From assembly GCA_947177575.1 (NCBI GenBank), contig CAMWVA010000008.1, positions 1-49,714 of the forward strand: a stretch of 49,714 bases of DNA, written 5' to 3'. Positions 1,688 through 15,489 of the stretch are shown piece after piece; positions within the stretch are counted from its first letter, which is position 1; each line of letters opens with the position of its first letter. The DNA is from an uncultured Porphyromonadaceae bacterium (lineage in GTDB: Bacteria > Bacteroidota > Bacteroidia > Bacteroidales > Muribaculaceae). The notes beneath the pieces are model-generated. The model was given only the letters and a program-made list of their open reading frames with translations. It was not told the DNA's origin and searched no databases. The position numbers and the translations under genes are program-made.

Positions 1688-2950
1688 TCAGCCCACCTGC
1701 GGTCCGGACGACTGAGCCAGCTCCGTAACCGGCTTGAGATTGGCGCTGACAAACTGTACATCACCACCCTCTACCGGTGTTTTACCGTGCCGGCGCCTTG
1801 CCTCGTTAGGAGTGTCGATACCGGCGGCTATACGCTTTTCCTGATACGTCATTTGCGTCGTTAAATCGCAGGCATGTATAGCGTCCCGGTCAAACCGATA
1901 CTTGCAGTACCGTCCCTCATCCGGTGTGAGCAGCTTACGCCGCAGCTCGCACTCAATTTGAGTGAGCATCGGCGACAGCGTATCCGATAAAAACGATACG
2001 TTAGCCATTTCGGCACTCTTATAGTTGTTACTCGTATCGTCAAAGACAAACGACGGATGCACACCGAAAAAGCGGCAAATTTCGCGCACCGTAAACTTAC
2101 GCGACTCCAAAAACTGCATGTCGCTCGAGTTAAGGGTCCAAGGGTGAAACTCGGCCTTACCCGGCATCGAAGAGATGCCCACACGACGCTTAATATTATC
2201 CCATACCTTGCCGGCAAGTGACTCAAGAGCGTTGTCCTGATACTCGCCCATGCCGAAAACTCCGGACTCGTTGGTGATAAATCCCCTGACGTTACCGCCG
2301 GTCTCAAACCGGTACAGCGTCTCGATGTCGCCTGCCCTGGCTATTTTGCCCACAATCCTACAAAACGTGGTTATCGCCCAGCCGTCTGTCTGGCCCGGAC
2401 CATACCCTTTGAGCACGATAATATCCTCCTCATCGAGAGTCCTGACAACATGCTGTTCAACGTCATTAACCGAGTAGATACGCGACTGGCTATCGTAGCC
2501 TACCGTACCGGTATTGAGCAGCACAAGGCTCTCAAGCTCGCCGTCACTCAGTGACCACTGAGGCACAATGTAGGCCACCCGGTTAAGTAATATCTGTGTC
2601 ACCGTCTGCCGCCAGAAGTCAAAGGCATTGATAGTGCTGTTAGGCTCGACCTCGAGCAACCACCATTCACGGCCACGACGGTCAGGCTCGTAAATATCGG
2701 CATCACGCAGACGCAGCTTGAGCAGCGGCAGTTTGGCCACCGATTCCGACAGCAGACGCACGCACCTGTAGACCGTTGCTATTTGCAACACCGCCGGCAC
2801 CGAAGCATCCATAGACAACCGGTCAGGCCACACCGTCAGCGACGGGTCAACCTCAACGGGCAGCGCCTGCTGCTCACGTCTGTGTAATCGTTTTTTTCGG
2901 CCGAATAGTCTCACGTATTGTGTCGGGTTAATTGTTAGCGGAGACAACAT
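1688..2950 (-). CDS. Phage portal protein, HK97 family
   Basis: The 420-residue product is a portal protein: the dodecameric ring at the capsid vertex through which DNA enters. Family marks are an N-terminal YRCVRLLSESVAKLPL helix, LEVEPNSTINAFDFW, and near the C-terminal third SNNYKSAEMANVSFLSD followed by TLSPMLTQIECELRR. I chose the ATG at 2950. A longer reading from a TTG at 3001 would run through a tandem palindrome (2982-3002) that looks regulatory, and its first 17 residues are not portal-like. An AGGAGG lies only one base before this ATG, which is too close to act normally; Bacteroidetes rarely depend on it. The gene lies between terminase and protease. Confidence 0.9.
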   Translation of the reverse strand: MLSPLTINPTQYVRLFGRKKRLHRREQQALPVEVDPSLTVWPDRLSMDASVPAVLQIATVYRCVRLLSESVAKLPLLKLRLRDADIYEPDRRGREWWLLEVEPNSTINAFDFWRQTVTQILLNRVAYIVPQWSLSDGELESLVLLNTGTVGYDSQSRIYSVNDVEQHVVRTLDEEDIIVLKGYGPGQTDGWAITTFCRIVGKIARAGDIETLYRFETGGNVRGFITNESGVFGMGEYQDNALESLAGKVWDNIKRRVGISSMPGKAEFHPWTLNSSDMQFLESRKFTVREICRFFGVHPSFVFDDTSNNYKSAEMANVSFLSDTLSPMLTQIECELRRKLLTPDEGRYCKYRFDRDAIHACDLTTQMTYQEKRIAAGIDTPNEARRRHGKTPVEGGDVQFVSANLKPVTELAQSSGPQVG

Positions 2951-2981
2951 GCCTCCTACATACCCTGCGCGATACCCCCGT

Positions 2982-3002
2982 TTTGCGCAAACTTTGCGCA
3001 AA
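2982..3002. promoter_or_regulatory. Tandem TTTGCGCAAA palindromes before the portal gene
   Basis: Two perfect 10-bp palindromes TTTGCGCAAA stand at 2982-2991 and 2993-3002, 11 bp centre to centre, which places them on about the same face of the helix. They lie 30-50 bp upstream of the portal ATG in an otherwise gene-free gap of about 215 bp after terL. Spacing and symmetry suggest a protein-binding site, perhaps for a late-gene regulator. No factor is identified. Confidence 0.4.
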
Positions 3003-3165
3003 ATACCCCAAACTTTAACAATCTTTAACTATAATACCCAATTCTCACTGCCTAATCCCTATTTCCTGCCTCCCCGTTACCAGCGCGAAGCAGGTTGCCG
3101 CCCGGAGCTCTGCTCCGATTACCCGTCCGTGCCTCCCGGTTCTGTGAGCGAGCTGTTTGCCGCGC

Positions 3166-4884
3166 CTACTCCGCCGTCCTGTACAGCTCGGCAAACAGCT
3201 TATGGCACATCAGCATCGTGATCACACCGTCGATACGCTGTGTGTCCTGTCTCTTTTCGGGCTTACAGTTGTCGAGACTGTCCGTCATCAGCACGGCATT
3301 GCCAAAGCAATAGTGATTAATCGGGTTGGAGTTAATGATAATATGCCCTGTCCGAGCTCCAACCTCGAAGCTCTCGCAAGCCGAGGTAAATGCACCCAAA
3401 GTCTGCGGTACTGCCCGGAGCACATGCCCCGCTCCGGAAGCGTGTAGCATGTTTACCGGCTCCTTAGCCTTATAGCTATCATAACCTATTGCCACTATAT
3501 TGAGATACGGCTGTAGACCTAATATATACTCGACAATACACCGGTAGTCTATAACATCTCCCGGCGTCAAACGCAGATGTCCCTGGGCTGCCCAGCCCCG
3601 GTACAGACGCTCGTTAGGATGATCCGTCAAAGCGCCTTCCGGGAAGAAATAAGCCGTATAATAGAAAAAGCTCTTAATATCCCGTATATAGATACCCCAC
3701 GTCACGGCCGAAAAGTCACCACGCACCGAAAGGTCCATTGATACCGTAGCCGCCGGTCGTCCTTTAATGTCGGTCAGCTCAATTTTGCGGCTCATCTCTC
3801 TGGCAAGCTTAGCCGGTATCCATGACTTGCGGTCATCGACACAATAGATGTTAAGCAGCTTGGTCCGAAATGCTAACTTAGCCTCAGCCCCCTCACGCTG
3901 GGCACGACGCCACTCGCTCTCATAAAATTCCGGGTGTACCGTAATGCCGAGGTGTGGGTGTACCTTACGCCATGTAACAGGGTCGTCCTCACGGTCGCCG
4001 ATGTCAGGCTCAAATAAGTGCGCAAAAAGCGTATCGTCCGGACAGTTACCTAATAATACCTGCTTATATCCCTCTAACATGCCGTAAAAAGGCCCGTCGA
4101 AAACATCGGAGGCTGTGGTAATAATCACCGTCAGCGGATTGTCACGCACGCCCATTGATGTAGTGAGCACTTGAAACAGTGTGGCATCACGTGCCTGAGA
4201 ATACTCGTCCATGATGATGACCGAGGCGTTAAGGCCGTCCTTCGTGCGTGCATTGGCTGTCAGACACTGCGCAAATGCCGGACGACTATTCCTCCGCGTA
4301 GGTTTGATGACCTCTTTGTTGACGACATACCGTGTACCTTCAGGGTCGAGCTTGAGCACACAACCCCGAATCACGTCAAAGCACTTTTTAGCCTGATCCT
4401 GCGAGTTTGCGCCGATATAGCTCTCGGCATTGGCATCACCAAACAACAAATCCCACAGCGCGAAGGCGGCCGACCCGGTCGTCTTGCTGAATTTACGTGG
4501 GACATACAGTGCACACTCCCTGACCACCCGGCGCCCATCACGCCAGAACCCGTACACGCTGGCAAACTGAAAACATTGTACCGGTGTCAGACTATAACGC
4601 ACTGAACCGACTTTACCCGGGAAATACAAAAACTCGTAGAAAGCGTAAAACCTTCGCACCCTAAGGGAATCCAGTCCGTACCGGTCACACATCTCCAGGA
4701 AGTGCACGACGGCTAACTGCTCCCAAAGGTTGTGTCCTGCCGGGTCCCGTGCAACCGTGCATACATATTGATACAGTCGGCCGTCAACCGTAGCCAGACC
4801 GTAACGGTCTATATCGAGACTTGCCAGCTGTTCCGACACCTGACGCTTGCGCACCATCAGTATCTCTTTCTCCTCCTCGGTCAT
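3166..4884 (-). CDS. terL: Terminase large subunit (DNA-packaging ATPase/nuclease)
   Basis: The 572-residue product carries both terminase activities. The ATPase half shows a phage-type Walker A variant, PRKFSKT at residues 129-135, and a Walker B IIMDEYSQA with Asp226-Glu227, followed by the coupling motif TVIITTASD. The RNase H-like nuclease half has acidic residues at Asp384 (VSMDLSVRGDFSAVTW), Asp469 (AIGYDSYK) and Asp552 (RIDGVITML), which are the metal ligands expected of HK97-type TerL. Length is normal. Its ATG overlaps the stop of the small subunit by one base (TAATG), so the two are translationally coupled. A gap of about 215 bp separates it from the portal gene. Confidence 0.95.
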   Translation of the reverse strand: MTEEEKEILMVRKRQVSEQLASLDIDRYGLATVDGRLYQYVCTVARDPAGHNLWEQLAVVHFLEMCDRYGLDSLRVRRFYAFYEFLYFPGKVGSVRYSLTPVQCFQFASVYGFWRDGRRVVRECALYVPRKFSKTTGSAAFALWDLLFGDANAESYIGANSQDQAKKCFDVIRGCVLKLDPEGTRYVVNKEVIKPTRRNSRPAFAQCLTANARTKDGLNASVIIMDEYSQARDATLFQVLTTSMGVRDNPLTVIITTASDVFDGPFYGMLEGYKQVLLGNCPDDTLFAHLFEPDIGDREDDPVTWRKVHPHLGITVHPEFYESEWRRAQREGAEAKLAFRTKLLNIYCVDDRKSWIPAKLAREMSRKIELTDIKGRPAATVSMDLSVRGDFSAVTWGIYIRDIKSFFYYTAYFFPEGALTDHPNERLYRGWAAQGHLRLTPGDVIDYRCIVEYILGLQPYLNIVAIGYDSYKAKEPVNMLHASGAGHVLRAVPQTLGAFTSACESFEVGARTGHIIINSNPINHYCFGNAVLMTDSLDNCKPEKRQDTQRIDGVITMLMCHKLFAELYRTAE

Positions 4885-5234
4885 TATTTTATAGCTAACA
4901 GTTTGTCGGTAAGCTCGTCTATCGGCCCGGACTTCTCCGGAGTACCTACAAGATCGGCTACAGTCAGCTTGAGTATCTTGAGCTGCTTTGTCACCTCAGC
5001 CATCGCCCCACGCTGTGTCCGAAACGCCGGATGCTCTACCGGCTTACTGCCATACTTACTCTCCTCTATCCCGCATGTCGAGTCAAGCCCCTCGATGTCC
5101 CGGTTAGACATACGCAATGCCAGTACAGCTGACGCCAGACAGTACACCTGTGTCGCCAACTGCGGAGACCATAACCCCGCTTTTTTAAGATCCGTCTGTA
5201 TCGAGCGCCTGATCGAGTCAACAGTCATCTTCAT
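4884..5234 (-). CDS. terS: Terminase small subunit-like protein (P27-like)
   Basis: This 116-residue protein immediately precedes terL and is coupled to it by a one-base overlap. The C-terminal half HPAFRTQRGAMAEVTKQLKI resembles the P27-type small terminase, where a conserved NPA/HPA is followed by a long helix and then a short L-T/S-P segment. Small subunits bind the packaging site and load the large subunit. Assignment rests on position plus this weak pattern. The gap of 120 bp between it and the HNH gene holds a repeated CACTTTTTT/AAAAGTCAC tract and a CCCCT...AGGGG inverted pair (about 5284-5334). A cos site would be expected near here in HNH-encoding phages, but I cannot define one. Confidence 0.72.
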   Translation of the reverse strand: MKMTVDSIRRSIQTDLKKAGLWSPQLATQVYCLASAVLALRMSNRDIEGLDSTCGIEESKYGSKPVEHPAFRTQRGAMAEVTKQLKILKLTVADLVGTPEKSGPIDELTDKLLAIK

Positions 5235-5354
5235 AATTTCACTTTTTTAAATCAATCCCAAAAGTCACTTTTTTGCAAAAATCCCCTCGCACAGAAGGTG
5301 ACCTGCACGGTGAAGTTTACACGGGTAGGGGTCCTTTTAAAAATACCGCCCCGG

Positions 5355-5723
5355 TCAAGCTGTCACATCCGCTCCTTCCGCGCCCAACTCCTCACCGTAG
5401 AATCTACGCATAAACTCGGCCGTCTCGGCTTTGCGGCGTGACGTCTGCTCCGCCTTGCCCTTACTGCCGAGATGCTCATGCTCGCGCTGATGACACTCGG
5501 GACACAGAGGCATGAGATTAGCCGGATCGTATGCCAACCGCTCACGCTCCCAAGGCGTGACGCCCGTCTGTATAGGTTGCACATGGTGCACCTCGCGTGC
5601 CTGGCGTACACGGCCTGCCTGTGCACAGCGCCGGCAAAGCGGCTCACGACTGAGCACCGACAGGCGCAGCTCCCGCCAGCGCCGGTTATTGATAAGCTTA
5701 ATATACTCTCTGTCGCGTGCCAT
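5355..5723 (-). CDS. HNH endonuclease (packaging-associated)
   Basis: The 122-residue product has a clear HNH/zinc fold: CRRCAQAGRVRQAREVHHV, then AYDPANLMPLCPECH and QREHEH. The first CxxC and the later CPEC form the structural zinc site; the HH and H residues form the beta-beta-alpha metal site. I chose the ATG at 5723 (MARDREYIK). A longer reading would overlap the upstream RHH gene, and its extra residues are not HNH-like. HNH genes next to terminases in HK97-like and cos phages are required for terminase cleavage at cos, which is the likely role here. The C-terminal tail is charged and probably disordered. Confidence 0.9.
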   Translation of the reverse strand: MARDREYIKLINNRRWRELRLSVLSREPLCRRCAQAGRVRQAREVHHVQPIQTGVTPWERERLAYDPANLMPLCPECHQREHEHLGSKGKAEQTSRRKAETAEFMRRFYGEELGAEGADVTA

Positions 5724-5730
5724 AATTATA

Positions 5731-6003
5731 CTATATACGTGTCCTGAGTCTATAACCCGCATCCACCCGCGACCGCTCAGCTTCGGCCAGTGCCGTGAAC
5801 ATAGCTGCCACACTATCCTCCTCCGCTGCCTCCTGCTCCTGCTCGCTGGCAGCTGTCCTGTAAGGCTCGACAGTCAACCTCAACAGGGCCGACACCATAG
5901 CCGGGACTCCCCGGAACCCACACCTGTGAGCAAGCACGGTCAGCCGGGAGTGCACCTCCCCGCTGACCGTCACGTTTAAACGTTTTTTTGAAATGTCTGA
6001 CAT
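5731..6003 (-). CDS. Ribbon-helix-helix-like small DNA-binding protein
   Basis: A 90-residue protein with an N-terminal RHH pattern: a short basic strand (KRLNVTVSGEVHSRL) followed by two helices (TVLAHRCGFRGVPAMVSALLRL). The second half is glutamate-rich (EQEQEAAEEDS) and predicted helical. RHH dimers bind operators through the paired strands, so this may repress the late operon or autoregulate. It is the first gene of the leftward packaging operon (RHH, HNH, terS, terL), which makes a regulatory role plausible. Alternatively it is a structural accessory protein. The fold is inferred by eye. Confidence 0.6.
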   Translation of the reverse strand: MSDISKKRLNVTVSGEVHSRLTVLAHRCGFRGVPAMVSALLRLTVEPYRTAASEQEQEAAEEDSVAAMFTALAEAERSRVDAGYRLRTRI

Positions 6004-6096
6004 CTGATATACACCCTATCCCCACAATAATGAGGTAAATTAAGACTCTCAAAGTTAGGAAATATCTATGATATATCCAACGGTTTACGCAAAAAC

Positions 6097-6138
6097 AAAA
6101 AAATCGGACAAACCGTTTCTCAACGTCTTGCCCGATTT
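6097..6138 (-). terminator. Rho-independent terminator of the CRISPR-repeat sRNA
   Basis: Read on the minus strand, AAATCGGGCAA at the 5' side pairs with TTGTCCGATTT at the 3' side (11 bp, one G-U). It encloses a CGTT-GAGA-AACG tetraloop stem and is followed by seven T. This is a textbook intrinsic terminator pointing left. Confidence 0.85.
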
Positions 6139-6182
6139 TGTCTCCTTGTGTAAGATTCCATACTGTTTTTCAGTTTGGGGTT

Positions 6183-6214
6183 GTTTCAATCCACGCACCC
6201 GCGTGGGGTACGAC
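6183..6214 (-). repeat. Solitary CRISPR repeat, type I-C class
   Basis: On the minus strand the 32 nt begin with GTCGTACCCC, fold through a six-pair stem (GTACCC with GGGTGC, one U-G pair) over a five-base loop, and end in GTGCGTGGATTGAAAC. Length, 5' GTCG, stem position and the 3' end match the well-known type I-C repeat family, in which Cas5c (Cas5d) cuts at the base of the stem and leaves an 11-nt handle ending in ATTGAAAC. All of these features are intact. I searched one repeat-plus-spacer length to either side and found no second copy. Confidence 0.85.
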
Positions 6215-6264
6215 TTCCCTAAGTAAAAAGAAGGTTGAAGGAAAAAAAATCTTATTCTGTACCA

Positions 6265-6296
6265 CAAAGATACTCCGAAAGTTGCGAAATATCAAA
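6265..6296 (-). promoter_or_regulatory. Bacteroidetes-type promoter for the CRISPR-repeat sRNA
   Basis: Minus strand: TTTG (6296-6293), 20 nt spacer, TATCTTTG (6272-6265). This fits both consensus boxes exactly (TTTG and TAnnTTTG) with the ideal spacing. Transcription should start near 6260, about 45 nt before the repeat. Confidence 0.8.
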
Positions 6297-6339
6297 CTTT
6301 TCAAGTTTTTTTAGTTACTATTTATACAAATACAGACAC

Positions 6340-6375
6340 AAAAAAAAGCCCTACTGCCGGAGAAGGCAGCAGGGC
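6340..6375 (-). terminator. Terminator of the DUF5053-like gene
   Basis: The arms GCCCTACTGCC (6348-6358) and GGCAGCAGGGC (6365-6375) form an 11-bp stem with one mismatch. On the minus strand the stem is followed by eight T. It lies 42 bp beyond the stop at 6417 and separates this unit from the sRNA unit further left. Confidence 0.85.
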
Positions 6376-6416
6376 GTAACCGGTCGAGCTGATTATTAAA
6401 AAGGATGACGAAATGT

Positions 6417-6677
6417 TTATTTCAGCTCGTCGGCAAAATCCTGAAGCTCGTAGGACAGAGTGTAGAGAGCGTCGCGTAAAGTCTTCATCTCTTCAGGTGT
6501 GAAATCGGCAGGCTTGCCGTTTTTAACGTTGTTATTCAGCTTCTGGCTGAACCAACTGTTTGACTTACCAAAGAAGCGTTGTGCCATGTAGGCACCGTTC
6601 AGAACTTTCAGTAGATCATGTGCAGTCAGAAACTCTACTTTAGAGAGCACGGGATTGTTTTCGCTGTTTGCACACAT
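6417..6677 (-). CDS. DUF5053-like small phage protein
   Basis: An 86-residue protein whose centre, FFGKSNSWFSQKLNNN, and following NGKPADFTPEEMKTLRDAL match what I remember of DUF5053, a family found in Bacteroidetes phages and mobile elements. The pattern FGKS-W-x(2)-KLN looks like a helix-turn-helix core followed by a helical tail, so nucleic-acid binding is possible; function is unknown. It is a one-gene or two-gene unit with its own terminator, placed next to the CRISPR-repeat sRNA between the packaging and replication operons, a usual site for accessory genes. Two GGATTGAAAA direct repeats (6685-6694, 6700-6709) lie just before its ATG on the opposite strand. Confidence 0.7.
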   Translation of the reverse strand: MCANSENNPVLSKVEFLTAHDLLKVLNGAYMAQRFFGKSNSWFSQKLNNNVKNGKPADFTPEEMKTLRDALYTLSYELQDFADELK

Positions 6678-6758
6678 GGGACAAGGATTGAAAAAAATTG
6701 GATTGAAAATTATAAATTAATACAATGCTTCCCCGGAGGAGAGTCGGGGAAACACGTC

Positions 6759-6908
6759 TTAGTCATGCTCGTCATTGAGCAGGGTGGTAAGATGGTGTCG
6801 AATTTCAACCTTTAACCATCTTTTACGACCTTTGTCCTTTATCAGACGGAAGTTAGTGAGCATAGCCACAAGGTCTTCGACTTCCTTTTTGAAGGTTTCG
6901 TCATCCAT
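6759..6908 (-). CDS. Small 49-residue phage protein, unknown
   Basis: An ATG at 6908 opens a 49-residue frame (MDDETFKKEVEDLVAML...RKRWLKVEIRHH...LNDEHD) ending at TAA 6759-6761. It is predicted wholly helical, with an acidic N-terminus and a basic middle. A Bacteroidetes-type promoter with an internal palindrome stands 26 bp upstream (6934-6964), which supports expression. The small size, charge and position beside an RNA anti-CRISPR candidate resemble anti-defence or regulator genes, but I recognise no family. The DUF5053-like gene follows after about 80 nt and may be cotranscribed. Confidence 0.6.
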   Translation of the reverse strand: MDDETFKKEVEDLVAMLTNFRLIKDKGRKRWLKVEIRHHLTTLLNDEHD

Positions 6909-6933
6909 ATAATTAAATTATTTAATGACGAAA

Positions 6934-6964
6934 CAAAGTTAGTAAACTTTTATTTACTAAACAA
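6934..6964 (-). promoter_or_regulatory. Promoter with overlapping operator palindrome
   Basis: Minus strand: TTG (6964-6962), 20 nt, TAACTTTG (6941-6934). Inside the spacer, TTAGTAAA (6939-6946) and TTTACTAA (6953-6960) form a perfect 8-bp inverted repeat overlapping the -7 box, the position of a repressor site. It would drive the 49-residue gene and probably the DUF5053-like gene. Confidence 0.65.
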
Positions 6965-6982
6965 TTTTCAAGGCATTTTTCT

Positions 6983-8344
6983 TTATGCTCCTCTGTTATT
7001 TTTCCTTAACTCGGCCATCAGCACATCCTGCACGCCTGTCTTGTCGCGCAGCGCCGCCAGCATAGCCTCGTCAACGGTGCCGCGCGCGCAGATACGTGTG
7101 ACTGTCACCGGGCGCGCCTGACCCTGACGGTGCAGCCTGGCGTTAGCCTGTAGATACTGCTCGAGATTATAGCCCGTCGAGTACCATACCACGTGACGGC
7201 CGCCCTGCTGCATATTCAATCCGTAGGCACATGAAGCAGGATGTGCTAAAAGCAGCTTTATAGTCCCGTTATTCCACTTTCTCAGTATTTCCGCACCGTT
7301 ATACATCTCAACGGCAAAACGCCCTTTAAAGGCCCTTAAAATACGTTCGGCGTCGTGCCGGTACTGATAAAAGCACAGCACAGGCGTATCGGCCGCCTCG
7401 ACTATCTCCGACAGTGCATCGGTCTTTGCCGTGTGCACCTCATGCACGCTGCCGTCACCGTCATAGACACCTCCGTTTGCCAGTTGCGAAAGCTTGCCGA
7501 CAAGCACGGCGGCAGAATCGGCCGTTACGCCGGAGCCGTCGCCGAACTCCAGCAGCAACTCACGCTTCAGGGCCTCGTATGCCCGGCGTGCCTTCGGAGG
7601 CAGCTCAACGGCGAAGTCCGACACCGTACACGGCGGCAGCGTCAGCCAGTCGGCAGCGCGCATCGACAGCGCTATGTCTGCTATAGCCGCACGGATCCGC
7701 GCTTCAGACCCCTTTTTAAGGCTCAGTTTCTCCCAGTTCTGTATCCTGTAGACATCAAAATACTCGGATTTAAACCGTGTGTATGTCGTCTCCAGCCTTT
7801 TGCCGCCGTCGATACAGTACACCTGAGCCCAGAGATCCTGCATACCGTTTGGCGCCGGCGTGCCGGTCAGCCCCACTACACGCGACACCACGCCGGTAAG
7901 CCTGCGCATCGCCCGGAAACGGGCCGAGCCCGGAGACTTGAAGCTTGTCAGCTCGTCGAGCACGATCATGTCCCACGGCCAGCGACGCCGACGGTAATAC
8001 GTCACAAGCCATACAAGCAGATCACGGCTGATAACGTTAACATCCGCATCCGTGCCTAACAGTTTCTCGCGCTGTCCGGGTGAGCCTGTGAGCGGTACCA
8101 CCCGCATGTCCTCCGTATGGCGCCACTTGGCCGCCTCGTCGCTCCATGTCGTTGCCGTGACCATTGCCGGAGCCACGACCAGAACCCGGCGCACATCACC
8201 CCACCACATCAGACGCCTGACGGCCGTCAGCGTGATTACCGTCTTGCCGAGTCCCATGTCGAGAAACAGCAGACTGCGCTCATTGTCGATGACATGATCT
8301 ATCGCCCGCGACTGGTAGGCATGAGGCTTAAACTCCGTACTCAT
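6983..8344 (-). CDS. SNF2-type DNA helicase/ATPase of phage replication module
   Basis: A 453-residue superfamily 2 ATPase. Motif I is LDMGLGKT near residue 35, motif II is the DExx box VLDELTSFKS, motif III is GLTGTPAPNG, and the second RecA lobe ends with motif VI QANARLHRQGQ. This compact SNF2-like form is common in phages of Firmicutes and Bacteroidetes, next to VRR-NUC and primase genes, where it is thought to remodel or unwind replication intermediates. The ATG at 8344 overlaps the VRR-NUC stop (ATGA), which fixes the start better than a TTG-type start 15 nt upstream. Last gene of the replication operon, 18 bp before the accessory pocket promoter. Confidence 0.92.
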   Translation of the reverse strand: MSTEFKPHAYQSRAIDHVIDNERSLLFLDMGLGKTVITLTAVRRLMWWGDVRRVLVVAPAMVTATTWSDEAAKWRHTEDMRVVPLTGSPGQREKLLGTDADVNVISRDLLVWLVTYYRRRRWPWDMIVLDELTSFKSPGSARFRAMRRLTGVVSRVVGLTGTPAPNGMQDLWAQVYCIDGGKRLETTYTRFKSEYFDVYRIQNWEKLSLKKGSEARIRAAIADIALSMRAADWLTLPPCTVSDFAVELPPKARRAYEALKRELLLEFGDGSGVTADSAAVLVGKLSQLANGGVYDGDGSVHEVHTAKTDALSEIVEAADTPVLCFYQYRHDAERILRAFKGRFAVEMYNGAEILRKWNNGTIKLLLAHPASCAYGLNMQQGGRHVVWYSTGYNLEQYLQANARLHRQGQARPVTVTRICARGTVDEAMLAALRDKTGVQDVLMAELRKNNRGA

Positions 8345-8706
8345 CGGCCCCGGAAGCAACTGGAGACGACGGAAGGCAACTCCGTAGCCGGATACGAGCG
8401 GAACACTCCTAAAAGCTCATCCACCTCGCTCTCGTCACTTATCCAGCAGGCAGCCTGACCTTGTGCACGCAGCTCGGCAAGACGGCAGATCTGCAAAGGT
8501 GTGGGCCGGCGCCCCGGAGCTTTTACCTCGACCCATACCGACAGCGCTGCTCCCTGGCGGTCACGCATCATGCAGATCCGGTCCGGATAGCCTCTTTGCC
8601 CCGGGTTATAGTATTTCAGGCACAGACCTCCTGCCTGCTCAACCTTGCGTACAAGATAGCTCTCGATTGTACGCTCGCGTGTATATTTCTGTTTCGATTG
8701 TGTCAT
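8341..8706 (-). CDS. VRR-NUC domain nuclease
   Basis: A 121-residue stand-alone VRR-NUC protein. The nuclease core reads: an early Glu (RERTIESYLVRKVE), GGLCLKYYNPGQRGYPDRI with the catalytic Asp, then VWVEVKAPGRRPTPLQ with the E-x-K, and a final LRAQGQAACWI helix-strand. These are the PD-(D/E)XK residues of the family. Phage VRR-NUC proteins act as structure-specific nucleases in replication or recombination. It overlaps the SNF2 helicase by four bases, a pairing seen in many phages. A gap with repeats and a duplicated gene fragment lies upstream. Confidence 0.92.
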   Translation of the reverse strand: MTQSKQKYTRERTIESYLVRKVEQAGGLCLKYYNPGQRGYPDRICMMRDRQGAALSVWVEVKAPGRRPTPLQICRLAELRAQGQAACWISDESEVDELLGVFRSYPATELPSVVSSCFRGR

Positions 8707-8760
8707 CGTTTCGGATTCTGTTTCTTAGTTTTGCCCATATATTTCGAGTGTTTTTAACTT

Positions 8761-8826
8761 CATGTGCCAGGCGTCGATGTAAGTACGACGGGCTGTGATG
8801 TCACGTGAGTCCCAGTCGTGAGGCAG
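8761..8826 (-). pseudogene. Third, broken copy of the primase C-terminal domain (66 bp)
   Basis: These 66 bp match 10234-10299 inside the large primase gene at 60 of 66 positions. Translated on the minus strand they still read LPHDWDSRDITARR and TYIDAWHM, the start of the C-terminal domain. There is no start codon in frame. After the copy the frame adds only about a dozen unrelated residues before a stop. It is a direct repeat of the primase segment, 1.47 kb away, with the stand-alone paralogue (9169-9756) between them. Confidence 0.8.
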
Positions 8827-8827
8827 G

Positions 8828-9168
8828 GTTGTAAGCAGAATTTTGACTATGTAAGAATGTAAGCAAAATGTGCTTACAAAATAAAATACTTGTTTTTAAC
8901 ATATTAGCTTCTATAGTTACATTATGTAAGCAATTCTCGCGCACGCGCGCGAGAGTAAAAATGCTTGCTAAAATTGCTAAAATCGCTAAAATTGCCTTTG
9001 TCAGTATTTTTAGTATATATTTTAGCATACATTTTTTTATTTTCTAAAATATTGCTTACAATGCTTACAAAGCTTACAAAGAGATATAAAAGCATGTTTT
9101 TTAAAACGATAACAAGTTTTTTTGTGTAAGCATAAGATTTTCATTATTGCTTACATTGCTTACTACTG
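8828..9168. repeat. Repeat-rich gap: TGTAAGC iterons, GC hairpin, TTGCTAAAA array
   Basis: This A/T-rich gap of about 340 bp has roughly ten copies of TGTAAGC or its complement GCTTACA, in both orientations (for example a GTAAGCA...TGCTTAC pair near 8850-8870, and TTGCTTACATTGCTTAC near 9147-9163). In the middle is a perfect 8-bp hairpin TCTCGCGC-ACGC-GCGCGAGA (8935-8954). Next to it, a 9-bp unit (TTGCTAAAA, TTGCTAAAA, TCGCTAAAA) is repeated three times at 8965-8991. The pattern resembles iterons of a replication origin or a repressor-binding array. I see no convincing gene; a 75-codon frame here is low-complexity. Confidence 0.6.
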
Positions 9169-9756
9169 TTAATCCTGCGGATCCGGTGTATTCTCCAGAT
9201 TGGAGATAGCTTCCACAAGAGCTTTTGCATACATGACGACTTCTTTTGCGCACTCGTCGTGAGAAAGAAGTGACTTACCACGATAATGAATAAAAAGAGA
9301 AATTGCAGAAGGGAGACATTTAATTAAAAGTTCTTCTTTATGCTCTCTGCTTGATTTATGCTCTCTGTTTGAAGTTTTGCGAGAAGGCAAAGGCGGTATT
9401 TCTACACTATGGATTCTCTTTATATTCTTTCTACGCCAACCTTTTTGTATGCCGTAAAGAGGTATACGGACACCTGTTTTCTTATTCCACCCTTCAAGGG
9501 TATCAATATATGCAGCTATTGCCCGAGCGAAATAGAAGTACTCTTTATCTTCTTTTCTGAGATCGAAAAGCTCGTAACAGATTTCCTTTACGCAAACTCT
9601 GCTGCGTAAAACGGAGTCTTTGTTTGAAGTCTGTCTGTCATAGTTGGCAATATAACTTTGCCTTGATTTGATGTCTCGTTTTGACCAATCTTTAGGTAAT
9701 TCCATATTAAGAAAGACATCAATCGCTTTTTTCATTTTTTGTGTTAATGATTCCAT
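9169..9756 (-). CDS. Stand-alone paralogue of the primase/VapE C-terminal domain (DUF3874-like)
   Basis: A 195-residue protein. Residues 10-110 are homologous to the last 115 residues of the large primase gene next door: both have a DxFL(N/D)MELPxDW start, S-(R/K)-D-I, then RVC(V/A)KEICYEL, and a closing YGxQKGW-(R/Y)RN/K. The remaining 85 residues are basic then helical and have no match here. The domain resembles DUF3874, known as the C-terminal part of Bacteroidetes VirE/VapE-type proteins; I am going from memory on that name. Base composition is A/T-richer than the neighbours. It lies between two different sets of short repeats, which suggests that the domain binds DNA and that this copy has diverged with its own site. 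Confidence 0.75.
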   Translation of the reverse strand: MESLTQKMKKAIDVFLNMELPKDWSKRDIKSRQSYIANYDRQTSNKDSVLRSRVCVKEICYELFDLRKEDKEYFYFARAIAAYIDTLEGWNKKTGVRIPLYGIQKGWRRKNIKRIHSVEIPPLPSRKTSNREHKSSREHKEELLIKCLPSAISLFIHYRGKSLLSHDECAKEVVMYAKALVEAISNLENTPDPQD

Positions 9757-9779
9757 ATATTTTTTAAGTGAGGTAAACC

Positions 9780-9929
9780 ATTAAACCGAGTAAACCGATT
9801 TTTCTATGGAGTATAAAAATACATGCTAAAATATGCTAAAATTATAGCTATTCCCTACACATAGGTATTTTAGCGTATTTTAGCAGCGATTTTTGCTCTA
9901 TATAAGAAAATCGGTTTACTCGGTTTAAT
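9780..9929. repeat. Nested inverted repeats between the two domain copies
   Basis: The outer arms are a perfect 23-bp inverted repeat (9780-9802 and 9907-9929; each contains GAGTAAACCG or its complement). The inner arms are 19 bp with one mismatch (9824-9842 and 9867-9885), each built from two GCTAAAAT units. Further GTAAACC copies lie outside at 9773 and 9966. The structure could extrude as a long cruciform. GCTAAAAT is shared with the other gap (8965-8991), whereas the outer motif differs (GTAAACC here, TGTAAGC there). Candidate origin of replication or operator for the primase-domain proteins. Confidence 0.7.
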
Positions 9930-10008
9930 AGTTTAAATAATATATTTATAATCAAGAATATAACAGGTAAACCGGAAAAGCATATTTTTATCATGATTTT
10001 TCCAAGTT

Positions 10009-12525
10009 TTAAAAAGCAAGCTTATTACGGTACCAGCCTTTTTGCGTGCCGTATTGTGCTATTTTTACGGTTGAAGTACGTTTCCAATCCTTCCGGCTAT
10101 CGAGATAGGCACTCACCTCGCGTGCTTTGCGCGAATAGTCGCGGTCCCTTGTCTCGATACGTAGCAGCTCGTAGCAAATTTCCTTTGCACATACGCGGTC
10201 CCGTCGATAGCCTCCTAACACGCCTTGCTCTTCCATGTGCCAGGCGTCGATGTAAGTGCGACGTGCGGTGATGTCACGCGAATCCCAGTCATGAGGCAGC
10301 TCCATGTCGAGAAAGGCATCAATCTCATCGAAAAGAGGATCGTTAAGGTCGTAATTATGTGCGTCGGATATTCGCTTGGCTTCAGCCTCGAGATCCTTAT
10401 CAAGATACAGCCGGACTTCCCCGGAGCGGTAAAGCGCCACAGCTTCAGCCCACAGCTGGTCGCGGTAGACGGTAAGGTAGTCACGCACCGACATGTCGCA
10501 GTTGCGCAGCGACGGCGACACGTCAATAACCGGGAAGCGACGTGCCCCGGTAAGTCCACGTAGCGGCAGCCTCTCGTTAGTTGTGGCACTGAAAACACAG
10601 CTACGCGGTGATACTGTCTCGTTACGCTCGTAAGCAGCGCGGAAGGTATCGGTCTGCGATGTCAAAAAGCACTTGATAGACTCGACGTCCTGACGCTTTA
10701 CGCCGGCCAGCTCAGCCAGCTCTACAAGTACCTTACCGCGTATCAGAGCCATCGTGTCCTTGCTGCGCAGATCCATTACCGAGTCGGTAAACCATGCACC
10801 GCCCATGATACGGAACAGCGACGACTTGCCGCACCCTTCGGGGCCGCACAGTGTAAGGCATATATCATACTGTATGCCGCGCGGATCATCGTTATATACC
10901 CTTGCTACAGCCGCGCAGAAATGAGTCTTTGTAAGTGTCCGGTTTAGCTCCGTATCCTCAGCCCCGATAACGTCTATTATTACTCTTTCGAGTCTTGGCA
11001 CGCCGTCCCATTCCAGCGAGTCGAAATACTCGCGGACAGGGTGGTAGGCGTTGTGTGCAAGAGCCTGTAGCAGTCCCTTGCGTATCTTATTTTCCGATGT
11101 TATCCCGTACTTTTTTTCAATCCACGCACACAGCCCCGCGTCGTCGTTGTCGGTCCAGCCTCCCGGATCGCGCTGCCAGGGCAAATCCCCTCTAATATCC
11201 ACACAGCGTTCAAAGGTATTTTTCCGGATTTTGCCTTTTAGGTCCGGATCATTAAGTAATATAATTGTGACGTTGTTTATAGTGCTGCGTGTCTCACCTT
11301 TGGAGCCTGTGTCAAGTTCCGCCTCCCAGTTACTCCCGTCATCTGTCACAGTGTCCGTCGTCTCTTCCGGTGTCTCTATCCCGTCGAAGTCGTATGTCTC
11401 AAAAGTCTTATTACGCTCTCTGATAAGCCGCAGCTTAACGTCCTTATCCTTCAGTGCGTGTTGCTCCATAGCCCGGAACGACGGAAGTCTTTGCGGGGTG
11501 GTTCTGTTACGCTCGATGTCGTCGTCTGTATCAAGATCACCGAACAGCCATATCCTTGTAAGGTCAAAAGCGTTAAGGCAGCGGCCTGCCAGCGGATCGG
11601 AGGCGTGATTGGAGTACATCCATTTGCCGCCGTGTGTAACGGCCCCTCCGGTATCGTATATTGCCACGCCGTTTGCCGAGTCGGCGCCGATGAGCGACCA
11701 CCGTCCGGGGTATCCCGGGCGATAATGGTCGGCCATGTACTCGGTGATAACTCTCTCGACGGGCCACTCACGGCACCAGGCACCGACAATATCGGTACGC
11801 AGTGTCGGGTCGCTAAGCGGTCTGCCTGCCGTGCCGCCGGTGCGGGGCAGCCTCGGTGCCGCACGTCCCCCGGGACGTACCGGCGCTTCGGGCTCGGGCC
11901 ATGTCGAGACGTCGTGCCAGTCGTCGTATGTGGCAAGCACGGCGTCGGCGCTGAGTGCTTCGCCGTCGGCAAGGCGTGTCACCCACTCTCCGTCGGCGCA
12001 GCATGAGCCCCAGAACATGAGGCGCGCCACCTCGAAGGTAGAGCCGTCGATACCGTCGAAGCCTATACGCTCGGCCACACGCCGCGCAATGGCGCCGTAT
12101 TCCTCGGCCGTCACGTCGCGGTCCAGCGGTATTACGATACGGTAACGCGGCTTTTTGGGCTGATGCTTGCGCGTCGAGTGCATCAGCATCGCGGTGCCGG
12201 GCCATGCCGCGCAGGCACGCTCCCATAGGTCGGCCGGTGCGTTGTCGTAGTCGAGCGACACACCCGAGCGGCTTACGACGGCGTCGTTTGTGCGGCGCCG
12301 CTGGCCGTTAAGCTCCCTAAGGGTGCCGAGCACGTAGCCGCCCCAGTCCTTTAACTGTGTCTGCGTCGGGGCAGCTAACAACAGGTAATCCTTCAGCGTC
12401 TCTTCCCCGCGCCGCTCGGTCAAAGCATGGTGTGCGAACTCGCTCCACGTCATCTGTGTGTTGGTCCACGACTTCGATAGCCGCGACGCGGCCAAGGCCA
12501 TTCTGATTCTGATTTCGTTACTCAT
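10009..12525 (-). CDS. Primase-polymerase / VapE (VirE)-type helicase fusion
   Basis: An 838-residue replication protein. The N-terminal part looks like an archaeo-eukaryotic primase fold: VSLDYDNAPADLW supplies the paired acidic residues and MHSTRKHQPKKPRYRIVIPL the later His/Arg motif (about residues 85-170). The middle is a VapE/VirE P-loop ATPase: Walker A GPEGCGKSS near residue 560, Walker B VELAELAG, a sensor FSATTNE, and an arginine segment GARRFPVI. The last 115 residues are a DUF3874-like domain ending in YGTQKGWYRN. It would prime and unwind phage DNA. The same C-terminal domain is present as a separate gene and a fragment downstream. Length and order are usual for the family. Confidence 0.9.
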   Translation of the reverse strand: MSNEIRIRMALAASRLSKSWTNTQMTWSEFAHHALTERRGEETLKDYLLLAAPTQTQLKDWGGYVLGTLRELNGQRRRTNDAVVSRSGVSLDYDNAPADLWERACAAWPGTAMLMHSTRKHQPKKPRYRIVIPLDRDVTAEEYGAIARRVAERIGFDGIDGSTFEVARLMFWGSCCADGEWVTRLADGEALSADAVLATYDDWHDVSTWPEPEAPVRPGGRAAPRLPRTGGTAGRPLSDPTLRTDIVGAWCREWPVERVITEYMADHYRPGYPGRWSLIGADSANGVAIYDTGGAVTHGGKWMYSNHASDPLAGRCLNAFDLTRIWLFGDLDTDDDIERNRTTPQRLPSFRAMEQHALKDKDVKLRLIRERNKTFETYDFDGIETPEETTDTVTDDGSNWEAELDTGSKGETRSTINNVTIILLNDPDLKGKIRKNTFERCVDIRGDLPWQRDPGGWTDNDDAGLCAWIEKKYGITSENKIRKGLLQALAHNAYHPVREYFDSLEWDGVPRLERVIIDVIGAEDTELNRTLTKTHFCAAVARVYNDDPRGIQYDICLTLCGPEGCGKSSLFRIMGGAWFTDSVMDLRSKDTMALIRGKVLVELAELAGVKRQDVESIKCFLTSQTDTFRAAYERNETVSPRSCVFSATTNERLPLRGLTGARRFPVIDVSPSLRNCDMSVRDYLTVYRDQLWAEAVALYRSGEVRLYLDKDLEAEAKRISDAHNYDLNDPLFDEIDAFLDMELPHDWDSRDITARRTYIDAWHMEEQGVLGGYRRDRVCAKEICYELLRIETRDRDYSRKAREVSAYLDSRKDWKRTSTVKIAQYGTQKGWYRNKLAF

Positions 12526-12667
12526 AGACAGTCAGTTTGCACCATGCCGGAGGCATAGTTGTTAATGAGTAACTTTACCGGTCTCTCGTGACTGGACACA
12601 GCTCCGCCATGTCCCTGTCTGCTTACATCTTGGTTTGGCATAATGTGGGATGTTTACATAAGGGTAT

Positions 12668-12853
12668 AAAAAAGGCCGTCGGGCCTCTCTGTAGTCGCCA
12701 AACCACCACATATACGTATTTCACCATATATATGTCCACAGAGGCCCGACGGCTGATGTCGTCAGGTATGATAAAATACTCTCTCTTTCGCCCTTCGGCG
12801 TTCGAGATATGTCAGTGGTTTGGCAACCGCGAAGTTAACATATCTCACCATAC
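12668..12853 (-). ncRNA. Structured small RNA candidate in the prophage
   Basis: Minus strand, between the DUF2815 operon terminator (12890-12925) and the primase gene. A TAAATTTG box (12865-12858) gives a plausible start near 12853, though its upstream box is weak. The 5' part folds into a 9-bp perfect stem GAGATATGT/ACATATCTC (12846-12838 with 12812-12804) that encloses a GGTT-GCCA-AACC hairpin. A CGCC-GAAG-GGCG hairpin follows. The 3' end is a long stem of about 16 bp (GCCGTCGGGCCTCT with AGAGGCCCGACGGC, arms at 12675-12692 and 12738-12753) and then six T. GCCAAACCA and its complement TGGTTTGGC occur three times between 12630 and 12825. No protein frame fits and no known family is recognised. 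Confidence 0.5.
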
Positions 12854-12889
12854 TTTGCAAATTTAATCCGGTAAAATTACTCTTTTGAT

Positions 12890-12925
12890 AAAAAAGGGCC
12901 TGCGACTCTCACGGGCAGCAGGCCC
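12890..12925 (-). terminator. Terminator of the early/replication operon (after DUF2815 gene)
   Basis: GGGCCTGC (12896-12903) and GCAGGCCC (12918-12925) form a perfect 8-bp stem with a 14-nt loop. On the minus strand the stem is followed by six T (12890-12895). It lies 38 bp beyond the stop at 12964. Confidence 0.8.
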
Positions 12926-12963
12926 GGGAATGTTATGAATAATCTTATGAAATAAGGGTATTT

Positions 12964-13596
12964 TTACATATCAAAGTATTTCTCTTCTGCCTCCTCCGTT
13001 TCGGATGCCATGTCGGAAAAGTCGTAAGAGTCGAACGACTCGGTACCGCCTCCGGAGCCGCCCATGCGCGGACCGTCGGCCACCTTCATCACGGCGTTAA
13101 GTCCGCAGGATATACCTTTGTTGACCTTCGCGGCGAAGGCAAAGAAATTAGCATCTATCATAGCCCAGATACCGCTGTAGACTTCCGAATCGTCTGTAAG
13201 GTCATTCTTTGCGAGGTCGAATACTTCCGGTCTCCGTCGCGAACTCATCGACAGCGCGAAGTGTCCGGCGAAGCCTTCGTACTCGGCATAGTTGCCCGTA
13301 TCGCCGTCCTTAACACATCGGTTCCATGTCTCAGGCAGACGGCCTCCCCACTTGTCGCTCAGGCCTTCCTGCTTTGCGGCTTCAAGTGCGGCCCCGATAG
13401 CATTAAGTGTGGCCTTTTCTGTTTTTGGTATGAGGGCTACGGCTTCATAGCGTGCCGTGTCATCAGCAGCACGGTCATCAAACTTACGGGGCTTGTTCAG
13501 ATGTACAAAGGCCAGACGGACGGGACCGAACTTAACCGATGTCTGTGTCTGTGCCGGCTGCTTGCAGGCGAGCTGCCTGCGGAATATTTTTCCCAT
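12964..13596 (-). CDS. DUF2815 phage ssDNA-binding-type protein
   Basis: A 210-residue protein with the DUF2815 pattern: VKFGPVRLAFVHLNKP at the start, YEAVALIPKTEKATL, a WGGRLPETWNRC-KDGD stretch, then GFAGHFALSMSSRRRPEV, VYSGIWAMIDANFFAF and NKGISCGLNAVMK. Members of this family are OB-fold single-strand DNA-binding proteins in phage replication modules. The C-terminal tail is acidic with an aromatic end (EETEEAEEKYFDM-like), as in SSB proteins that dock partners. It follows the Cas4-like nuclease by 18 bp and ends the early operon before a strong terminator. Confidence 0.88.
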   Translation of the reverse strand: MGKIFRRQLACKQPAQTQTSVKFGPVRLAFVHLNKPRKFDDRAADDTARYEAVALIPKTEKATLNAIGAALEAAKQEGLSDKWGGRLPETWNRCVKDGDTGNYAEYEGFAGHFALSMSSRRRPEVFDLAKNDLTDDSEVYSGIWAMIDANFFAFAAKVNKGISCGLNAVMKVADGPRMGGSGGGTESFDSYDFSDMASETEEAEEKYFDM

Positions 13597-13614
13597 TGTT
13601 GTTGCTTTTAGAAG

Positions 13615-14403
13615 TTATTGAATAAGGTCTGTGAGGTCACGGAAATCGTACTCGTTAAATCCGTTGCGGCGGTTCTGCCCGGCGAGTGCGGAGTAGGCCT
13701 TACAGTCGGTTTTTGCCATGCAGAACCGGCACCACTCGCCGGCCTGCCGGTCTCCTTCGCCGCGCCATGCAAGGAGCGCCCTGGGCTTCAGTGTTCCGCC
13801 GGCCCAGAGCAGCAGCTCGCGGCGTGAGACGGTGTAGGTGGAGATGTTGAGCCGGCGCGGCTGGACGATGTGCATCGATACCGTCTCGATGTCATAGTGC
13901 AGCGGCATGATGCCCAGCGCACCGAGACCGTAAAGCATGAGCTGCGGGTTTTGCGGTGCCTCGACTTTGACGCCCCGGCCGTATTTAAGATCCACAATGT
14001 CGAGCCGTCCGTCCGAGAGGATCACACAGTCGCCGGTGCCGTAAGCTTCGGGCACCCACTCGCGCAGGTCAAGAGGCTGCTCCACCAGCACGCGGCAGCC
14101 TCCGGCCGCACGTCTGGCTCTTGCAACAAGGCCATCGATATATCCGGTGTACATACCCGTGTAAGCCCACATCGTCGATGATCCGTACTTACTCCAGTAG
14201 CGCCGGATCTCGTCCTCCTCGCCTTTGATGTCGTGCCCGGGCATGTAGCGCAGCTTCAGTGCGCGGGCTGCCATGGCGTGAGCCAGTGTACCCTCCTCGG
14301 TGTAGGCATTAGGCGGGTTAGGCAGATGCTCGGCTGCACGCACGGCCGGCGTGCAGTGCAGCCATATATGAGCCCCTGAAGGCGACAGCAGCGCGTGTGA
14401 CAT
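13615..14403 (-). CDS. DUF2800 Cas4/RecB-like nuclease
   Basis: A 262-residue protein with a PD-(D/E)XK layout of the DUF2800 (Cas4/RecB-like) type. An N-terminal LSPSGAHIWLHCTPAVRA and EGTLAHAMAARAL hold the first Cys and motif I. YGTGDCVILSDGRLDIVDLKYGRG gives the GxxD and D-x-K active site, PQNPQLMLYGLGAL is the Q-x3-Y motif, and EWCRFCMAKTDC supplies the C-terminal cysteines that may hold an Fe-S cluster. Phage members probably act as 5' exonucleases in recombination. The ATG at 14403 overlaps the preceding stop by one base (TGATG), and the DUF2815 partner follows directly. Confidence 0.88.
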   Translation of the reverse strand: MSHALLSPSGAHIWLHCTPAVRAAEHLPNPPNAYTEEGTLAHAMAARALKLRYMPGHDIKGEEDEIRRYWSKYGSSTMWAYTGMYTGYIDGLVARARRAAGGCRVLVEQPLDLREWVPEAYGTGDCVILSDGRLDIVDLKYGRGVKVEAPQNPQLMLYGLGALGIMPLHYDIETVSMHIVQPRRLNISTYTVSRRELLLWAGGTLKPRALLAWRGEGDRQAGEWCRFCMAKTDCKAYSALAGQNRRNGFNEYDFRDLTDLIQ

Positions 14404-14891
14404 CAGAAAGGTAAATCTACAATCTCCGGCGTGCCGGCTGCATTAATCTCAACCTTGTCGCAGTAGTGCATAAATGACAGGGCTTTCTCCGGAGGCAGCT
14501 GTGTGGGCTTGGCATCAGGTCCGCCCAGTTCGGCTGCCATATTCATCAGCAGCTTGTAGACAGCCTGCTTACAGGTCTTCCCCTGCGGAGTCGCCGGTGC
14601 CTGCCAGTCCGCTCCCACGCACCGCGCGAAGGCACGGTCAAGAGCATCGCGCACCTGCTTTGCCATGTCGGTCTTTGCTGTCTGTTGCTGCGGCGGAATC
14701 TCGGCTATTTTCTTCGGTTCCGGTTTCGGTTCCGGAGCTACGGCCGGCTTCATTGCCTCCGGCTGTCGGGGCGGCTGTGTCTGCTGTGACATCACCACAT
14801 CGGTTGCGATCATACGCACCGCCAGCGGTTCTCCACACTCCAGAGCCACTGTCACGCGGCCCGTCACGTTTATGTTAAGGTTTATATCCAT
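14403..14891 (-). CDS. Phage early protein with Pro/Glu/Lys-rich linker, unknown
   Basis: A 162-residue protein I cannot assign to a family. The N-terminal 30 residues are beta-like (MDINLNINVTGRVTVALECGE in part). Residues 35-75 are a proline-, glutamate- and lysine-rich linker with repeated PEPKPEPKK. The C-terminal half is helical with a DRAFARCVGADW core and VYKLLMNMAAELGG. It lies in a tightly packed early operon, coupled to the Cas4-like nuclease by a one-base overlap, so a role in recombination or as its partner is reasonable. Nothing in the sequence shows activity. Confidence 0.75.
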   Translation of the reverse strand: MDINLNINVTGRVTVALECGEPLAVRMIATDVVMSQQTQPPRQPEAMKPAVAPEPKPEPKKIAEIPPQQQTAKTDMAKQVRDALDRAFARCVGADWQAPATPQGKTCKQAVYKLLMNMAAELGGPDAKPTQLPPEKALSFMHYCDKVEINAAGTPEIVDLPF

Positions 14892-14893
14892 TG

Positions 14894-15181
14894 TTATTTA
14901 TGTTTATGTTTGTGTAGAGCCACGTATGTTGCAGCCATACTCTCTGTCTCGGCCTGTGTCGGTATCCGTGTTGCCAGGCACCAGCTGGTCAGCTCGCTGC
15001 GCAGGAAGGTTATCCGGTCCGCGCCGTTACGATAGTGCGGCAGCTCTCTCTCGGCTACCAGACGGCGTACCCTGTCGGCCGATATACCCAGCATCGCGGC
15101 TGCCTCCCTCACATTGAGCACCTCTTTTACTCCGATACTCAGCAGCGCTTCTATACGCTCAAGTCTTTCCTCTATGCTCAT
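14894..15181 (-). CDS. Excisionase-like HTH DNA-binding protein
   Basis: A 95-residue protein. After a 20-residue coiled N-terminus, residues 21-65 match the HTH_17/excisionase pattern of the MerR-like winged helix: VLNVREAAAMLGISADRVRR, then RELPHYRNGADRITFLRSEL, with the wing and an adjoining Leu/Trp helix. Such proteins bend DNA for integrase (Xis) or act as small transcription factors. The protein ends in KHKHK. It overlaps the upstream 103-residue gene by four bases, so it is translated from the early operon mRNA. No integrase is in the window to pair it with. Confidence 0.8.
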   Translation of the reverse strand: MSIEERLERIEALLSIGVKEVLNVREAAAMLGISADRVRRLVAERELPHYRNGADRITFLRSELTSWCLATRIPTQAETESMAATYVALHKHKHK

Positions 15182-15489
15182 GGCTCCGGTATTATATCAA
15201 GTTTAGCCAGCAGCGCGTCTGCCTGTCTGAGGGCTTCGGCCGCTGTGTCGCTGTGCTCGGCCAGATAGCCGCCGGCAAGCAGGCCCTGCATGGCGGCCGT
15301 AGCCACACGCAGACGCAGCGAGTTTATACGTCTGACCGGACGGCTGTCACGATAGCCGCTGTTATATCCGGTCATATAGCCGCAACTAAATCCGTATTCT
15401 ATCAGCTCCTCCGGCTCCTTCAGAGCACATCTGGAGATACACTCTCTGAGTGCTTTGTCATATATCATATCCATATAGGTCTGAAGCAT
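15178..15489 (-). CDS. Phage early protein, unknown (helical)
   Basis: A 103-residue protein without a recognised family. The C-terminal third, AMQGLLAGGYLAEHSDTAAEALRQADALLAKL, resembles the tail of small proteins common in Bacteroidetes phages, where AMQ(G/A)LLA precedes a conserved AD-x-L-(I/L)-x-(E/K)-L helix. The N-terminal part is rich in tyrosine and glycine (YGFSCGYMTGYNSGYRDSR). It overlaps the excisionase-like gene downstream by four bases and a Cys-rich 46-residue frame upstream. Confidence 0.65.
   Translation of the reverse strand: MLQTYMDMIYDKALRECISRCALKEPEELIEYGFSCGYMTGYNSGYRDSRPVRRINSLRLRVATAAMQGLLAGGYLAEHSDTAAEALRQADALLAKLDIIPEP

Follow-up and report, generated by a model that had tools for sequence, protein, structure and literature searches.

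What is a solitary type I-C repeat of a CRISPR system (clustered regularly interspaced short palindromic repeats) doing among the genes of a prophage, behind a promoter and ahead of a terminator of its own? The question is raised by a locus in contig CAMWVA010000008.1 from an uncultured Porphyromonadaceae bacterium, where such a unit is read on the minus strand from 6296 to 6097; all coordinates refer to the window, the whole stretch of 49,714 nt that was analysed. The likely answer is that the unit is a stand-alone racr gene, whose product would be an RNA anti-CRISPR (Racr) acting as a decoy for Cas5c and Cas7. Its parts, in the direction of transcription, are these:

6296-6265, minus strand: promoter, identified by pattern match; TTTG (6296-6293), a 20-nt spacer and TATCTTTG (6272-6265)
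6215-6258, minus strand: U-rich leader with a small hairpin, from the fold of the RNA
6214-6183, minus strand: solitary type I-C CRISPR repeat of 32 nt, GTCGTACCCCACGCGGGTGCGTGGATTGAAAC, with a 7-bp stem; 31/32 identical to the host array repeat, differing at position 5
6149-6182, minus strand: spacer-position segment of 34 nt, the first 30 nt of which (6182-6153) resemble the start of a host exbB-like gene
6139-6097, minus strand: intrinsic terminator, predicted by folding; 12-pair stem with an inner hairpin (6139-6100) and a T run to 6097

A sequence-only reading of the stretch had named the promoter, the U-rich leader, the repeat and the terminator; all four are present, on a strand that it left unstated. 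It described the terminator as an 11-bp stem and seven T; the structure listed above is the one predicted by folding. The simple terminator scan of the window did not list this terminator, probably because of the scan's loop limit. The arrangement TTTG-N20-TATCTTTG matches what we take to be the Bacteroidetes promoter consensus; the window has five sites of the form TTTG-N19-21-TANNTTTG, where 100 mononucleotide shuffles have 0.45 on average. From this promoter the RNA is predicted to start near 6258, and 43 bases separate the repeat from the terminator. Between 6262 and 6097 (166 nt) the predicted folding energy is -49.3 kcal/mol (z = -3.9), a stability equalled by none of 200 shuffles. An Rfam scan of the window returned no known RNA family above its gathering score.

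The repeat has a close counterpart in the same genome. The assembly to which the window belongs (G000; 3.2 Mb in 210 contigs, 86.5% complete) holds 18 further copies of the exact 16-base repeat end, all on contig C78. There an array of the repeat GTCGCACCCCACGCGGGTGCGTGGATTGAAAC and close variants, read on the minus strand of that contig, runs at the contig end with spacers mostly of 33-36 nt, and so supplies the matching I-C array that the sequence-only reading had proposed to look for. The solitary repeat and the array repeat are identical at 31 of 32 positions, including all of the last 27 (blastn-short of the array repeat against the window: 56.0 bits, E = 1.5e-11), and this match excludes a chance origin. 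The single change, C5 to T in the solitary copy, turns a C-G pair of the stem into U-G, and the same 7-bp stem is predicted for both repeats, at -10.8 kcal/mol for the solitary and -12.8 kcal/mol for the host version; within the RNA of the whole unit the stem pairs have probabilities of 0.74-0.85. Processing by Cas5d/Cas5c yields an 11-nt 5' handle (PMC5965380, a review), and the handle of the CRISPR RNA (crRNA) is held by Cas5c and Cas7 (PMC7684278). Because the last 27 bases are identical, the features for such a handle, and for its grip by Cas5c and Cas7, are kept; the handle expected from the solitary repeat after the predicted Cas5c cut is UGGAUUGAAAC. As far as such predictions go, stem-loop and handle appear intact for binding by the processing enzyme, as the first description had held.

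The published SRUFinder criteria for a solitary repeat unit (SRU) are identity to a known repeat, and coverage of it, of 90% or more, a bit score of at least 41.1, no full or partial repeat within 100 bp, and an intergenic location in a virus, prophage or plasmid. With the host array repeat as reference, the match covers 32/32 positions at the identity and bit score given above. Ungapped matching of the 100-bp flanks found no full or partial second repeat (best matches 13/32 and 14/32), in agreement with the earlier claim that none lies nearby, and the unit is intergenic within a prophage, the only listed open reading frame (ORF) to overlap it being one of 60 aa with a TTG start (6085-6267), which by eye looks non-coding. 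The only available copy of the repeat is not the edge of an ordinary array. Across the window its exact 16-base 3' half occurs once, and with up to three mismatches at three places against 0.44 expected; one of these, 11114-11129, was rejected as a second repeat, since it is coding sequence of a VapE-like gene (frame CAWIEK) and its surroundings hold no repeat.

Such a decoy has a validated precedent of the same subtype. RacrIC1, likewise a solitary type I-C repeat in a prophage, was shown in Bifidobacterium pseudocatenulatum to restore infection by a targeted phage, and the accompanying survey found that, where the host has a cas operon, 83% of prophage SRUs share its subtype (PMC10651486). 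That RNA is transcribed together with an AcrIC5 homologue lying 11 nt upstream of it, whereas the unit described here has its own predicted promoter and terminator, belongs to another host group and has no acr-named neighbour in the family scans. Closer in layout is RacrIF1 of a Thiocystis prophage (PMC10651486), an intergenic prophage small RNA with its own promoter and one repeat, which is however of type I-F and processed by Cas6f, where Cas5c would process the present RNA. Type I-C Racr function having been published already, the suggestion that such an RNA would be new does not hold for the class, and novelty is limited to the individual case. Neither this unit nor an SRU guide directed against exbB was found described in the literature covered, mainly open-access papers.

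If the unit acts in this way, the prophage would transcribe an RNA of about 160 nt, whose repeat hairpin the host Cas5c would bind as if it were a precursor crRNA and cut at the base of the stem. The product would have the right 11-nt 5' handle without a guide of any use. While occupied by it, Cas5c and Cas7 would be withdrawn from functional I-C Cascade complexes, interference would fall, and the prophage, together with other phages in the cell, would be protected.

In the array of C78 fourteen distinct spacers were counted, leaving aside the partial 23 nt before the first repeat and a gap of 247 nt near the end. Against the 111 genomes of the genus, they match outside the array on two contigs: C43 of the same assembly and C7 of G082. 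C43 (locus L261) matches spacer 1 at 34/34 positions beside a TTC protospacer adjacent motif (PAM), spacer 5 at 30/34 with TTC, spacer 6 at 32/34 with TTT and spacer 3 at 30/36 with CTC, while on C7 three spacers match with 1, 3 and 5 mismatches. Of ten proteins of C43 that were scanned, eight had no named function; one is a head maturation protease and one weakly matches terminase, and on this basis the contig is taken for a phage. A perfect, PAM-flanked target in the assembly that holds the array is the pattern expected of an inhibited or broken I-C system. At up to 8 mismatches the spacers had no match in the other loci searched (1.14 Mb, with 0.84 Mb viral and 0.31 Mb from the genus), and no protospacer for them was found in the window at up to 9; the 15 bp shared by spacer 4 and window positions 5262-5276 were judged to be low-complexity sequence.

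Some details of the array may be recorded here. A block of four spacers is tandemly duplicated (L011:13605-14106, on C78). The last perfect repeat (L011:13029-13060) stands about 250 nt apart from the others and is directly followed by a long palindrome; contig C54 of G082 has, directly behind a repeat, a sequence that is 92% alike over 37 nt.

The near-identity of the repeat, a base change that keeps its structure, the unit's own predicted promoter and terminator, its agreement with those SRU criteria that were checked, the self-targeting and the published type I-C Racr together support the interpretation of the unit as an RNA anti-CRISPR. The suggestion of the sequence-only reading is thus strengthened by a cognate array, an apparently intact structure and the self-targeted C43, and those of its refuting conditions that could be checked did not apply. 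A Racr is the simplest account of the facts presented, the likeness to exbB excepted. Several observations nevertheless weigh against it. Genes for Cas5d, Cas8c and Cas7c were not found in the 86.5%-complete assembly. They may be located in the assembly gap beyond the end of C78: in relatives such as G024, G059, G077 and G034 cas8c lies a few kb upstream of the first repeats of the array, and C78 stops on that side, 23 nt before the first repeat that it holds, those 23 nt being leader or another spacer. The host may also be devoid of cas genes, which would itself explain the tolerance of self-targeting; from the assembly, inhibition and loss of the I-C system are indistinguishable, and C43 may be a co-binned free phage rather than a resident. 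There is in addition no signal of conservation: the 111 genus genomes yielded nothing homologous to the unit outside its repeat, and a search of 397 genomes of the family yielded no homologous unit for the sequence 3' of it. Pfam and PHROGs scans of the neighbouring genes gave no acr-named family, although no search aimed at acr genes was made. Lastly, the 30 host-like nucleotides that follow the repeat would be superfluous in a Racr.

Beginning at the first base after the repeat, positions 6182-6153 align with the start of a gene of the MotA/TolQ/ExbB family (by Pfam) on host contig C13, across its 5' untranslated region, the ATG and the first two codons; of the 30 columns, 27 are identical, two are mismatches and one is a gap. 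The likeness stops beyond about 34 nt, within the length range of the array spacers. At E <= 1e-3 this is the sole non-self match of the segment among the 397 family genomes (E = 8.1e-4, with few candidates scored per genome). Its score of 43 compares with 20-32 at the best places of the exbB loci of 18 relatives; for the whole genome, a Gumbel fit to 120 shuffles puts the probability of a score this high at 8e-4. The control maximum, 44, comes from the locus G059:C502, which belongs to the control set since it had been fetched as a match. This 27-nt match falls within what looks like coding sequence and was attributed to chance, and the exbB match could likewise be due to chance. The likeness is probably real, yet unexplained: a guide, a decayed self-spacer or luck.

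Of these, a decayed self-spacer would make the unit a relic, in which a phage captured a repeat together with a spacer derived from the host's own genome and which is now inert. The length and host-like character of the segment would suit this, as would a TTC found on the other strand immediately past 31 nt of the exbB match, the place expected for a flipped spacer, but 31 nt is shorter than the 33-36 nt of the array. An inert remnant would have little use for a promoter and terminator of its own, the leader appears by eye dissimilar to those of the genus's I-C arrays, which are AT-rich, and the only base change in the repeat preserves the stem. We regard this origin as unlikely.

More doubtful is a crRNA-like guide, in which the roughly 34 nt after the repeat would lead host Cascade to the start of the exbB-like gene and repress it without cutting. 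The model is CreA, the antitoxin RNA of CreTA, which resembles the unit in having ectopic repeat(s), a crRNA-like RNA and a partly matching guide (PMC9458426). Because units of this shape may act as regulators as well as decoys, as a free-standing repeat in G001 (described below) suggests, this reading was kept as a rival. A reduced supply of energy through TonB-ExbBD could exclude phages that use TonB-dependent receptors. The quality of the alignment, its start at the first post-repeat base, its uniqueness in the family at that threshold, its score relative to related exbB loci and its end at a spacer-like length all speak for a guide. CreA, however, pairs partially with a toxin promoter beside a TTC PAM (PMC9458426), and the targets of the host array have TTC or near-TTC flanks, while the exbB site has AAT on the 5' side of the spacer. 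In a scan of the window and of loci L011, L221 and L261, the only TTC+AACCCC site showed an 11/34 match to the segment. The alignment is further marred by a mismatch at seed position 4 and by a gap and a mismatch at positions 11-12, and an equally strong, apparently fortuitous match exists inside a gene of one genus genome, as described above. In the one prophage where the same comparison was made (G023, described below), the sequence after a solitary repeat had no other match in its own genome (1/1). The neighbours of the unit are DUF5053, a small unnamed gene and HNH, no toxin search having been made.

A dual role, in which the repeat would load I-C Cascade and the following 30-34 nt, host-derived, would steer it to the exbB start, repressing TonB energy and excluding competing phages, is still harder to credit. 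A mini-CRISPR carrying a guide against a competing phage, as in the mini-CRISPR arrays of archaeal viruses (PMC11656645), has very little probability: such arrays comprise at least two repeats round a virus-matching spacer, and here there is one. A 421-base region gave no match at E <= 1e-5 among 50,697 phage records, a search that detects only a near-perfect 34-nt match, and IMG/VR contains no exact copy of the 22-base repeat-spacer junction, which tests for the unit and not for its target. An ordinary phage small RNA, or some other site with a chance repeat, would be equally well served by the promoter and terminator, but is near-refuted by a 31/32 match to the host repeat (E = 1.5e-11) amid phage genes.

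If the unit is indeed a Racr, it would extend type I-C RNA anti-CRISPRs to a Bacteroidales-type host, as a free-standing gene running from promoter to terminator, and would provide a compact part for tuning I-C tools. Since a prophage decoy, a cognate array at 31/32 identity and a contig targeted by that array occur in one assembly, the idea that a decoy permits the persistence of a self-targeted phage is directly testable. Were the exbB-like segment functional, the phage would be turning host Cascade on one of the host's own genes.

The setting of the unit is that of a prophage, and the relevant genes are the following:

1688-16392, minus strand: prophage genes flanking the unit, including portal, terminase large subunit, HNH, (the unit), DUF5053, SNF2-type helicase, VapE-like protein, Gp2.5-like single-stranded DNA-binding protein and exonuclease
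16510-17163, plus strand: CI-like phage repressor
26924-34160, plus strand: host side of the contig, with MutS, TonB-dependent receptor plug and SusD-like genes

The phage genes, together with MutS, the TonB-dependent receptor plug and the SusD-like genes beyond about 26 kb, indicate a prophage in a Bacteroidales-type chromosome. Within it the unit is placed between the replication and the packaging genes, with DUF5053 on one side and a small gene beside HNH and terminase on the other. At 6680-6710 the plus strand, opposite the stretch immediately upstream of the DUF5053 gene, carries two GGATTGAAAA motifs that look like the handle of the repeat in antisense.

By terminase, the closest cultured phages are the Bacteroides phages Bacuni_F1, F4 and F2, at 62.7% identity. 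Bacuni_F1 has the order helicase, small gene, HNH and terminase genes without the repeat, and no repeat was found at up to 9 mismatches in F4 or in the 27.7 of 40.4 kb of Bacuni_F1 that were read. G002 (L097) has two DUF5053 genes between helicase and HNH, also with no repeat. As these two differ at this point and both lack the repeat, the gap between helicase and HNH looks like a site where extra genes come and go.

The sequence-only reading had proposed to look for the same promoter-repeat-terminator unit in related prophages; no homologous unit was found. A helicase search gave some match in 47 of the 111 genus genomes, from which five prophages at 50-55% identity were taken; one locus with a distant helicase (L098, 26%) was left out of the count. 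Homologous loci from prophages or phages numbered 11 (L049-L052, L093-L097, L264 and L265), some of them partial; one, that of G023, has a solitary repeat, at another place and with another sequence, which is the single copy of the I-C repeat pattern in that genome. Repeat-like matches in L094 and L095 (11 mismatches) fall inside the portal gene and were taken as chance. More widely, the I-C repeat pattern is present in 18 of the 111 genus genomes, and Cas8c exceeds its cut-off in 17.

Solitary I-C repeats as such were frequent in the viral sequences sampled. The sample comprised 89 IMG/VR stretches (L101-L189), a few contigs contributing two, that carry the I-C-type repeat pattern applied here; 62 are solitary within 150 nt, 20 are array-like and seven lie too near an edge. 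The solitary ones resemble the present unit in having a single repeat, but neither the 29-base 3' part of its repeat nor its repeat-spacer junction has an exact match in IMG/VR. The one exact match to this 29-base end among genome contigs is the degenerate end of a Desulfovibrio array.

Several of the other solitary repeats have features of their own. That of the G023 prophage (L093:18180-18211; G023:C18:42180-42211, plus strand) lies directly 3' of an S24-type repressor gene, in a genome that gave no match for Cas8c, and by eye the bases that follow it could pair back with the repeat stem. In G001 an I-C repeat stands free outside any phage (C25:25189-25220, minus strand; L190:1501-1532), about 3 kb upstream of cas8c on the opposite strand, and has a terminator-like hairpin about 45 nt beyond it. 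The 34 nt after it showed no convincing target in the surrounding 3 kb (best scores 15 and 21); this repeat looks like a candidate CRISPR-derived regulator of the cas operon. The viral contig 3300032053_000217 of IMG/VR (L120; repeat at 5724, read on the minus strand) carries a solitary I-C repeat between two copies of one 34-nt phage sequence, with TTC before the first copy, which suggests either an assembly chimera or the insertion of a repeat-spacer unit next to its own protospacer. In another, 3300025317_000072 (L136), the 30 nt downstream of a solitary I-C repeat at 8107 recur exactly at 3015-3044, 5 kb away.
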